Shown here: positions 9,213-38,571 of the stretch, in pieces
How the letters are laid out: each line of letters begins with the position of its first letter
Position numbering within the stretch: position 1 is the stretch's first letter
Assembly (NCBI GenBank): GCA_015486235.1
Contig: WFSD01000163.1
Span: 1-39,875 of the forward strand
Source: Anaerolineae bacterium
Lineage (GTDB): Bacteria > Chloroflexota > Anaerolineae > S016-19
Direction of reading: 5' to 3'
Length of the DNA stretch: 39,875 bases
The notes under the pieces: generated by a model
Database searches by the model: none
Told to the model about the DNA's origin: nothing
What the model saw: only the letters and a program-made list of their open reading frames with translations
Translations under genes and position numbers: made by a program

Positions 9213-9301
9213 AAGGGATTAGGGGACAGGGGTTAGGGGGTAAGTACTGCCTTTTGCTCCCAGGAGCCCTTTCGCGCCTAACCCCTGTTCCCTAGCCCCT
9301 G
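9213..9301. repeat. Heptad palindrome, G-rich variant
   Basis: GGGATTA GGGGACA GGGGTTA GGGGGTA ... CCTAACC CCTGTTC CCTAGCC CCT, opposed and self-complementary. Confidence 0.82.
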
Positions 9302-17144: not shown

Positions 17145-17272
17145 TCACCGCAAAGCTCGCGGAGTTCGCAGAGAACATTGAAAAGCCGTTAGCAGTTAGC
17201 CGATAGCCGGTAGCGGCCCTTGCCTCTTCAGCATTTTTCATGCTGACAGCTATCGGCTGCCGGCCATCGGCT
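17145..17272. repeat. Composite repeat F: TCACCGC-like 9-mer unit plus heptad palindrome
   Basis: TTCACCGCAAAGCTCGCGGAGTTCGCAGAGAAC followed by hairpin 17184-17272 (GTTAGCA GTTAGCC GATAGCC GGTAGCG ... GCTATCG GCTGCCG GCCATCG GCT); internal perfect hairpin TCAGCAT-TTTTC-ATGCTGA. Confidence 0.8.
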
Positions 17273-17274
17273 CT

Positions 17275-18609
17275 TCACATCTCCGCCACGCGCTGCCACA
17301 CTGCCGGGGCGATCTCCAGGCCGCGGGCGGCGATTCTTTCCTCGTCCAGGGTCAGGAGCTTCCTCCCACGCATCAGCACTTTCCCGCCGACGATGGTGGT
17401 ATCCACGTGGGAACCGGAAACACCGAAAACGATGTGCCACGGGAAGTTCCCGTCGGTCACGGGCGTGTACGGGCGGTAGTCCAGCAGGATGATGTCCGCC
17501 GCAGCCCCCGGCTCCAGTTTCCCCACGGGGAAGCCGAAAGCCTCCGACGCCAGCCTGGCGTTGTTCTCCACCGCCATGCGGATGACCTGGTCGGCGCCCA
17601 TCAGTCTAGGGTCGCCCCGCCACACTTTCGGCAGGAGGTAGGCGAACTTCATCTCCATGAACATGTCATTGCTGAAGCCATCGTTTCCCAGCACCACTTT
17701 CATGCCCCCCCGGAGCATGGAAGGGACGTCGGCCACGCCGACGGCGTTGTTCATGTTCGAACGCGGCTGGTGCGAGACCCACGTGCCGGAACTCCGCAGC
17801 GCCTCGATCTCCCACGGGTCCACGTGCACGGCGTGGGCAGCGATGCTCCTCGGGCCGAGTATCCCAAGGTCGAGGAGGCGATGAACCACCCGCTTGCCGG
17901 ACTTCCGGAGGCTGTCGTCCACGTCCTCCCGACCCTCCGCCACGTGGATGTGGAACCCGGCGCCCAGGGGCTCCGCCTCGGCGCGGCAGCGCTCCAGGGT
18001 CTCGTCGGAGAGGGTCAGGGAAGCGTGGAGGCCGAAAGTGCCGGCGAGGCGCGGCGATGGGTTCGACCGGAGTCGCCTCAGGAACCGGACGTTCTCCCGT
18101 ATCCCCGCCAGGGCGCCCTCAGGTCCGTTCCGGTCGGTGACCTCGTAGGCCAGGGACGCCCGCACGCCCGCCTCCTCCACCACGTCGGCGATCACGTCCA
18201 GGGAACCGTCGATGAAGTTCGGGCTGGCGTGGTGGTCGAAAAGGGTAGTAGTCCCGTGGCGTATGGCGTCGGACAGGGCGACCTGTGCGCTTATCCGCAC
18301 TGATTCCTCATCCAGCGCCCGATCCAGCTTCCACCAGAGCCGTTCCAGAATCTGGACGAAAGTCCGGGGAGGCTCTCCCGGCACCGCCATTCCGCGAGCA
18401 AAGGCGCCGTAGAAATGGGTGTGGGCGCAGATGAGGCCGGGCATGACCAGCATCCCATCGGCATCCAAAACCTCGTCTTCAGGGAAGCATTTCGTCACCT
18501 CCGCCGTGGAACCGACGGCATCTATGACGCCATCGGAAATCCGAACGGCGCCGTCTTCCAACACCCCGCCCTCGGACATGGTGAGCACCAAGCCATGAAC
18601 AATGAGCAT
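17275..18609 (-). CDS. Amidohydrolase family protein (SsnA/cytosine deaminase-like, TrzN/AtzA-type)
   Basis: MLIVHGLVLTMSEGGVLEDGAVRI...MPGLICAHTHFYGAFARGM...GFHIHVAEG...AAHAVHVDPWEIE...LGNDGFSNDMFMEMKFA. Confidence 0.85.
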   Translation of the reverse strand: MLIVHGLVLTMSEGGVLEDGAVRISDGVIDAVGSTAEVTKCFPEDEVLDADGMLVMPGLICAHTHFYGAFARGMAVPGEPPRTFVQILERLWWKLDRALDEESVRISAQVALSDAIRHGTTTLFDHHASPNFIDGSLDVIADVVEEAGVRASLAYEVTDRNGPEGALAGIRENVRFLRRLRSNPSPRLAGTFGLHASLTLSDETLERCRAEAEPLGAGFHIHVAEGREDVDDSLRKSGKRVVHRLLDLGILGPRSIAAHAVHVDPWEIEALRSSGTWVSHQPRSNMNNAVGVADVPSMLRGGMKVVLGNDGFSNDMFMEMKFAYLLPKVWRGDPRLMGADQVIRMAVENNARLASEAFGFPVGKLEPGAAADIILLDYRPYTPVTDGNFPWHIVFGVSGSHVDTTIVGGKVLMRGRKLLTLDEERIAARGLEIAPAVWQRVAEM

Positions 18610-31543: not shown

Positions 31544-31689
31544 TCACCGCAGAGCCCCTCAAAAAGCCGTTAGCAGTTAGCAGTTAGCAGTTAGCAGTCA
31601 GCCGTAAGCCGATAGCAACAGGATTTTCGCAAAAGCTAACGGCTGCCGGCTAACGGCTATCGGCTCTCTCCCCGCGTACTCCGCGGTGA
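31544..31689. repeat. Composite element E (outer TCACCGC/GCGGTGA arms with inner heptad array)
   Basis: GTTAGCA x4 then GTCAGCC GTAAGCC GATAGCA at 31569-31617, opposed by GCTAACG GCTGCCG GCTAACG GCTATCG GCT at 31635-31665. Confidence 0.9.
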
Positions 31690-36485: not shown

Positions 36486-37322
36486 TTACCGGCTCTTCTT
36501 GCTACGGCGCCGTACGATAAACTTATCTGTGGTCTTGCGCCGCCTGGTCTTGTAACCCAAAGCAGGCTTGCCCCAGGGGGTCTTCGGCCCCGGCATGCCA
36601 ATGGGCGAACGCCCTTCACCGCCGCCATGGGGATGCGAAGCAGGGTCCATGGCAGATCCACGGACCTCCGGCCTGCGACCCAGCCACCGCTTCCGGCCAG
36701 CCTTTCCGAGTTTGATGTTGGCATGGTCCGGGTTGGATACCTGCCCGATGGTAGCCATGCAACGACGATCCACCAGACGCACCTCACCGCTTGGCAGGCG
36801 GATGTGGACGTATGGCCCTTCTTTCGCCAAAAGTTGCGCTGCGGTTCCCGCGGAGCGCACCAACTGCCCTCCCCTGCCAGGATAGAGCTCAATGTTGTGA
36901 ATCATGGTGCCCAACGGGATATTGTCCAATGGCAAGGCATTCCCCGGCTTGATCTCGGCTTCCGGTCCGGACATCAATGTGTCCCCCACGCTTACCTCCA
37001 GCGGGGCCAGGATGTAACGTTTCTCGCCATCGACATACGAGAGGAGAGCTATGCGGGCGCTACGATTAGGATCGTACTCAATGGAAGCGACCCTTGCCGG
37101 GACTCCAACTTTATCACGGCGGAAATCGATGATGCGATAGCGTCGCTTGTGCCCGCTGCCCCGCTGCCGGATAGTGATCCGCCCCTGGTTGTTGTGGCCA
37201 GAGCCTCTCTTCGTCGAAATGAGCAAGGAACGCTCAGGCTCGGCTTTTGTGATCTCCTCGAACGTGGAAACGCTCATCCCACGCCGGCCGGGCGACGTTG
37301 GCTTGTAAACTTTGATTCCCAT
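36486..37322 (-). CDS. rplB: 50S ribosomal protein L2
   Basis: [25 protein letters not shown]...[45 protein letters not shown]. Confidence 0.98.
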
Positions 37323-37404
37323 GTCACTTTACTCCGCAAGCTTGATGCCGGCCATCCAGCCGGTCGGCGGGCGATACTCGCTTGCTTTTTGGCCGCCCGC
37401 CCCT

Positions 37405-37634
37405 GCAACCACGAATATTGCAACCACGAATTACACGAATTACACGAATTGCACAAAGCTACACGAGTTACACGAAACTGCACGAATTGCACAAAACTGC
37501 ACGAACTACACAGAGCTACACAAATTGCACAACGCTGCACGAATTGCACAAAGCTACACGAACTGCACAGAGCTACACGAACTGCACAGAGCCACACGAA
37601 TTGCACAAAGCTACACAAATTACGCAAATTACAC
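37405..37634. repeat. Degenerate short tandem array of alternating about 9- and 10-bp units (ACACGAATT / GCACAAAGCT)
   Basis: About 230 bp such as ACACGAACT GCACAGAGCT ACACGAACT GCACAGAGCC ACACGAATT GCACAAAGCT; sits between rplW and rplB and includes the rplW stop codon. Confidence 0.92.
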
Positions 37635-37919
37635 GCCTTCGAATATGGTGATGGACTCATCAGGTTCCAGGGTTATGATCGCTTTCTTCCACCCCGGCTT
37701 CCGCACGGATATCCGCCTCCCATATCGCTTTCGCTTGGAAGGCATGTTGATGACCCGCACATCCACCACATGGACCTCGAAAACTTTCTCTATGGCTTCC
37801 TTCACCATCCTCTTGTTAGCACGCTTGTCAACCTCGAAGACATATTGGTTGTACTCGTCCTGCAGGTGGTCTGCCTTTTCGCCCATTATGGGCCTTTTCA
37901 GGACTTCGTAAACATTCAT
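37629..37919 (-). CDS. rplW: 50S ribosomal protein L23
   Basis: MNVYEVLKRPIMGEKADHLQDEYNQYVFEVDKRANKRMVKEAIEKVFEVHVVDVRVINMPSKRKRYGRRISVRKPGWKKAIITLEPDESITIFEGV. Confidence 0.97.
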   Translation of the reverse strand: MNVYEVLKRPIMGEKADHLQDEYNQYVFEVDKRANKRMVKEAIEKVFEVHVVDVRVINMPSKRKRYGRRISVRKPGWKKAIITLEPDESITIFEGV

Positions 37920-37932
37920 TCTGGCTCCCTCC

Positions 37933-38571
37933 CTACCCCAGGACATCCGTGATTGCCTCGAGGGCATCCAGCGGGATGATCAAAGTGTCGAACTCGAGGA
38001 TATCCCGGACGTTCAGGTATTTTGCGTGCAGGGTCTCGACACCGGGAAGGTTACGCGCCGCCCGATAGACATTCTCGTACGATGCCCTCCCCCCATTGAT
38101 CAACACCAGTGCGCTCCCTTCCACATTCAAGCCGTAGAGGAGAGCGGCCATCTCCCTGGTTTTCGGGGGCACCCGACTCACATCGTCCAGCAAGACAATC
38201 TGCCCTTCTTCGGCTTTCACGGTAAGGGCCGAGCGGAGTGCCAAATGGCGCATCTTCTTCGGCATATCCTTCCTGTACGACCGTGGCTGCGGGCCGAAAA
38301 CTGTGCCGCCGCCCTTCCATTGGGGCGCCCTGATAGACCCCTGGCGGGCCCGACCTGTACCTTTTTGCCGCCACGGTTTCCTGCCTCCGCCTCTGACTTC
38401 GCTTCTACCTTTCGTCTTGTGAGTGCCCAGACGGGCATTGGCAAGCTGTCGGACCAGTGCCTGGTGCATCACAGCCTCGTTCACCGGCGCGCTGAATATG
38501 CTCTCCGGGAGATCGGCTTCGCCGACTTTCTCGCCATCAATGTTGAAAACTGGCATTTGCATCTTCACCAC
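37933..38571 (-). CDS. rplD: 50S ribosomal protein L4
   Basis: [91 protein letters not shown]. Confidence 0.98.

Follow-up and report, generated by a model that had tools for sequence, protein, structure and literature searches.

The spacer between rplW and rplB in the S10 operon of this Anaerolineae bacterium combines a conserved structured RNA, which ends at the rplB start codon and is a candidate for translational control of rplB by L2, with a tandem array of short units that is absent from a congener. The RNA matters more than the array beside it. Should it prove to be an L2 leader, these bacteria would possess a control point within their S10 operon, before rplB; the array alone makes a modest case, that of an intergenic repeat with rapid turnover that an essential ribosomal operon tolerates and whose site is empty in the sister species. 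The operon, encoded on the minus strand, occupies the end of the 39,875-nucleotide stretch of DNA analyzed here (the window). Pfam confirms L4, L23, and L2, and for the r-protein genes flanking them we infer identity from gene order and size. Alignments with many homologues begin at residue 15–17, so that the true rplW start is likely located near 37919. The features of the region are as follows:

37629..37967, minus strand: rplW (L23), Pfam PF00276
37629..37631, minus strand: rplW stop codon TAA, merging with the last array unit; the gene end GAAGGCGTGTAA is also found in L017, L150, and L157
about 37404..37635, no strand assigned: short-unit tandem array, units CACGAATTR (9) and CACARAGCTR (10) alternating, from repeat searches and the insertion relative to the congener
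37320..37405, minus strand: conserved structured RNA ending at the rplB start codon, candidate L2 leader, from a 74.9-bit match to covariance model R1 and from covariation
37393..37401, minus strand: 5′ arm of leader stem P1 (GGCGGGCGG), from the leader alignment
37366..37374, minus strand: 3′ arm of P1, from the leader alignment
37380..37385, minus strand: 5′ strand of the proposed pseudoknot, GCAAGC, in the P1 loop, from strand pairing
37336..37341, minus strand: 3′ strand of the proposed pseudoknot, GCUUGC, directly before GGAG, from strand pairing
37332-37335, minus strand: GGAG, the likely Shine-Dalgarno sequence of rplB
36486..37322, minus strand: rplB (L2), Pfam PF00181 and PF03947

About 85 bp of the spacer, overlooked in the original prediction, correspond to the conserved RNA. 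Covariance model R1, built from seven leader sequences, was run on 249 class genomes and matched 22 times, in 21 of them. Of these matches, 21 immediately precede rplB, distributed over six families (L138–L158); seven of these 21 sequences had served to build the model, and 14 are independent. The consistent position upstream of a ribosomal protein gene, as looked for in a leader, is accompanied by covarying structure. In the P1 stem, 92.6% of the alignment cells are paired and six of the nine pairs are changed on both sides. P1 covariation amounts to 0.443, compared to 0.246 ± 0.024 when shuffled and ≤0.18 when slid, a figure somewhat inflated by an alignment that was fitted to the stem. The P1 stem is supported by these data. 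A pseudoknot probably forms as well: one family has AAGC/GCUU as the pair and another has GGCA(A)/(U)UGCC, and the mean helix length of 5.33 compares with 4.49 in swaps, none of 2000 swaps reaching 5.33. It is less secure than P1 because its strands were picked by eye. The RNA has no match in Rfam 15. A search for the leader beyond the class, in 399 genomes of the phylum, yielded one extra match (L160), which was treated as chance since neither rplB nor rplW is present nearby.

Known r-protein leaders suggest, by analogy, that L2 may control translation of rplB. It is reasonably probable both that this is a new leader RNA (not in Rfam 15 or the literature searched), comprising P1, a hairpin, and a pseudoknot with its 3′ strand next to the rplB Shine-Dalgarno sequence, through which L2 or another ligand would turn off translation of rplB within the S10 operon, and that short-unit repeats recurrently land in the segment from the rplW stop to the leader, the leader being left intact. 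Autogenous control of the S10 operon is established through L4 at the 5′ leader (PMC10931766). The literature searched contained one published L2 leader candidate, an alphaproteobacterial RNA upstream of rplB-rpsS-rplV-rpsC that is rated borderline, its ligand being guessed from the nearest gene (PMC7247131). The RNA described here is likewise a predicted RNA before rplB but belongs to another lineage.

The array, as read, starts with TGCAACCACGAATATTGCAACCACGAATTACACGAATT... at about 37404 and extends to about 37635; its plus strand opens with TGCAACCACGAAT(A)TTGCAACCACGAATTACACGAATT. TRF places the array core at 37425-37621, with a period of 19, 10.4 copies, 81% match, and no indels, and a repeat search recovers nine 90-nt copies, in register, at a spacing of 19. 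Both confirm the original prediction of a tandem array of alternating units of about 9 and 10 bp with a 19-bp higher-order period. The length of 306 bp given there for the L23-L2 spacer, unusual for the class, is also correct, as is the statement that a clear inverted arm is missing: the repeat search found no inverted repeat in the window copy. The best 9-bp self-match of the spacer is 19/20, a value reached by none of 200 shuffles. Because the units alternate between 9 and 10 bp, a scan for autocorrelation at a single period misses the array.

The one congener compared (G001) has an rplW-rplB spacer of 82 bp without the array. This spacer aligns to the window spacer 3′ of the array (GGACGGGCGGCUAAAUGCAAGC... 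versus GGGCGGGCGGCCAAAAAGCAAGC...), and nothing stands in the array's place. Since the downstream sequence is conserved with a congener that has no array, the sequence comparison identifies the array as an insertion. At the junction, the congener spacer is too diverged for a target-site duplication, a feature of MITEs, to be defined. The same-genus genome shares 73% (rplW) and 87% (rplB) amino acid identity with the window and provides the best rplW match among 60 relatives. In a set of 50 class spacers that includes the window's, lengths range from -1 to 306 bp (-1 to 130 bp in 48 other relatives), and none of the others contains the window's array. With a median of 41 bp and frequent values of 40–130 bp, this set does not bear out the earlier assumption that the spacer normally measures a few bases.

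The C-terminus of L23 reads ITIFEGV, and its TAA stop is located where the array begins. The claim that the array carries the rplW stop is therefore literally true; the stop is nevertheless probably native, i.e., rplW's own, because GAAGGCGTGTAA is the exact end of rplW in L017, L150, and L157 as well, all of which lack the window's array. That the stop context resembles an array unit (GTGTAATTC) could be fortuitous or due to microhomology where the array inserted. In L155 and L157, a different short-unit repeat is found at or just behind the rplW stop, its unit resembling the stop context (GTAA) as in the window; microhomology at the birth of such arrays is a possible idea suggested by this likeness, not a result. 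Relatives combining a short spacer with a longer rplW C-terminus, a constellation raised earlier as evidence to the contrary, were encountered in part: the congener spacer is shorter, but no displaced longer rplW end was found, L23 ending in EGV in most relatives.

Short-unit repeats occur in the same gap in other genera. Heptamer repeats lie between the rplW stop and rplB in L150, L151, L154, L155, L014, and L010, and octamers in L157 (each P = 0.005, the floor of 200 shuffles). The units in these genera measure 7–9 bp, their sequences are unrelated to that of the window, and the content of the gap differs even between related species, which suggests a tolerant site that turns over rapidly rather than a conserved array function. 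L150 (316 bp), a member of another family, contains a hairpin of CACTAAG/CACGAAG/CACAAAG nonamer units, in the form CCACTAAGAACACGAAGACACAAAG, together with a heptamer array; its gap repeat is an independent insertion.

The motif of the window array is dispersed. Within the source genome, TGCAACCACGAATTNCACGAATT (≤3 mismatches) is found at about nine other places. The largest of these, on C425 (L073 5555-5770), is an array with a 33-bp higher-order period filling the gap between divergent genes; the other genomic copies are shorter. Short copies precede genes on C152, C53, C386, and C351, and one on C33 lies behind a stop codon. Judged by eye, the divergent genes on C425 are presumably Elp3-like and methyltransferase-like, and we take the genes after the short copies to be ssb (C152), metZ (C53), argH (C386), and an Hdr-like gene (C351). 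The motif is also seen inside a gene fragment that occurs, with shared flanks, on two contigs (C169 and C283; L071 120-190, L072 4640-4715), by eye presumably GDP-mannose 4,6-dehydratase-like. Four other motif sites of the genome could be located in the congener, and the array is absent at all four.

Beyond the source genome, CCACGAATTNCACGAATT is present in 48 of 249 class genomes with up to about 52 copies, whereas a reversed-pattern control gave no matches. Many of these 48 genomes carry the element as a 60–100-bp hairpin, GCCACGAATTNCACGAATT...AATTCGTGNAATTCGTGGC. An exact 32-mer scan of genome contigs produced one Bacteroidales match, and the motif is present in inverted form in the Bacteroidales MAG. 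Among viral sequences, a form with three units occurs on eight contigs. According to a crude gene caller, 65 of 78 copies are outside ORFs. As to the question raised earlier of whether other copies adjoin stop codons, in general they do not: distances are broad, with a median of about 100 bp and ≤10 bp in 12 of 66 measured cases, and a general tie of the motif to stop codons was rejected. Literature searches by unit strings retrieved no papers, and one on a possible link to GxxExxY retrieved no useful paper.

Intergenic simple-sequence repeats with units of 6–9 nt, few of which have been described, include the GGGAATC heptamers of Xanthomonas and the GGGGA(C/T)T repeats of Nostoc (PMC4692102). 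The array fits this class: its short units (9 + 10 bp, 19-bp period) are arranged head to tail, and the same unit recurs at many intergenic loci. Shared with the Xanthomonas and Nostoc repeats are short heterogeneous units in 2–26 copies, many intergenic loci per genome, inversion of some pairs, and the lack of a detected link to mobile elements (PMC4692102). In contrast to them, the CACGAATTR/CACARAGCTR nonamer/decamer is not G-rich and has few copies in the source genome, and the tested sites of the window genome are empty in the congener, while 90% of the Xanthomonas repeats are common to the two species compared (PMC4692102). Chloroflexus aurantiacus contains a prokaryotic satellite with a heptamer unit, (GATAGRA)n, and similarly harbors dispersed short-unit families in one genome; the unit differs, and satellite families are usually species-specific (PMC6749651), whereas the window motif occurs in many genera and in a Bacteroidales MAG. 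The heptanucleotide repeats of Calothrix (cited in PMC4692102) are also tandem short-unit families of cyanobacteria but differ in unit length and sequence. As for MITEs, terminal inverted repeats are missing from the window copy, although many copies in other genomes are hairpins. The combination of a short palindrome with a Y1 transposase that characterizes REP/RAYT systems is not seen in the array either.

The array is quite likely a tolerated non-coding insertion, grown by slippage and a member of a dispersed class of short-unit (7–9 bp) intergenic repeats. It would have begun as a small TGCAACCACGAATT(RCACGAATT)n-type copy inserted between the rplW stop and the leader RNA of rplB; there, replication slippage or unequal recombination would have increased the number of units and made them diverge, giving the 19-bp higher-order period. 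We infer these processes because the tandem units are degenerate and higher-order periods differ between sites. Toleration would follow from its position, with the stop codon ahead of it and the rplB leader RNA and ribosome-binding site after it all intact, and the array would most likely have no function of its own beyond a longer transcript. One observation, a small orientation bias, is not predicted by neutrality: the window copy, like those on C425, C351, and C152, has its GGTTGCA end towards the downstream gene. No mobilizing enzyme was identified, the sole Y1 transposase detected in the genome being surrounded by different repeats. This gene, of the REP-associated type, lies at L112 1501-1842 amid GGCGCAGGCCGACATTGC-type repeats of its own. 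A RAYT-driven REP element was rejected on these grounds and for want of a palindrome in the window copy.

Other explanations are less consistent with these data. A regulatory spacer, with the array slowing or attenuating transcription or keeping rplW translation apart from rplB and thereby leaving the L2 leader to act on rplB alone, would agree with the occurrence of different repeats in the same gap of several genera and with a clear short-unit repeat there in 6 of the 21 leader-bearing genomes. It is unlikely, however, given that the unit sequences are unrelated between genera and that most leader-bearing genomes, the congener included, have no array. No terminator-like site was found in the array, and its RNA is less well folded than the mean of the shuffles (z +1.44); a structured RNA or terminator in the array was rejected on these results. 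Ten 19-bp direct repeats might suggest an iteron-like or protein-binding array, but degenerate units alternating between 9 and 10 bp, the 9- or 33-bp periods of other copies, and the site inside a ribosomal operon make this highly improbable.

That the array encodes a repetitive peptide of the LHELHE or SFVQFVQ type is hardly credible. The reading frames are as first described, with all three plus frames free of stops and one minus frame open (7, 0, and 4 stops in the minus frames). Openness of the plus frames is trivial, as none of them meets a stop triplet within the unit; the ORFs run antisense to rplW and rplB, and those tested have no Pfam family above cut-off, in line with the earlier view that they are spurious. 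An assembly artefact, in which a collapsed or chimeric repeat was joined into the operon, could be suspected in a MAG of 441 contigs with 6.8% contamination, where contig C283 ends close behind a motif copy. Such a mis-assembly is very unlikely because the congener operon is collinear with the contig on either side of the array and the units are degenerate, the longest exact repeat inside the array, 24 nt, being shorter than usual k-mer and read lengths.

Other class genomes (L106, L107, and L108) contain larger arrays, with 37–38-bp and 32-bp units and with a ~115-bp unit, itself containing the hairpin, repeated about five times in tandem. The window itself carries three hairpin elements with arms of 7–8-bp units, at 31565-31658, 17179-17277, and 9214-9300 (AGCAGTT, GATAGCC, and GGGGACA types), which are probably among the elements designated A–E in the original prediction; the one at 31565-31658 lies, by gene order, between r-protein genes.
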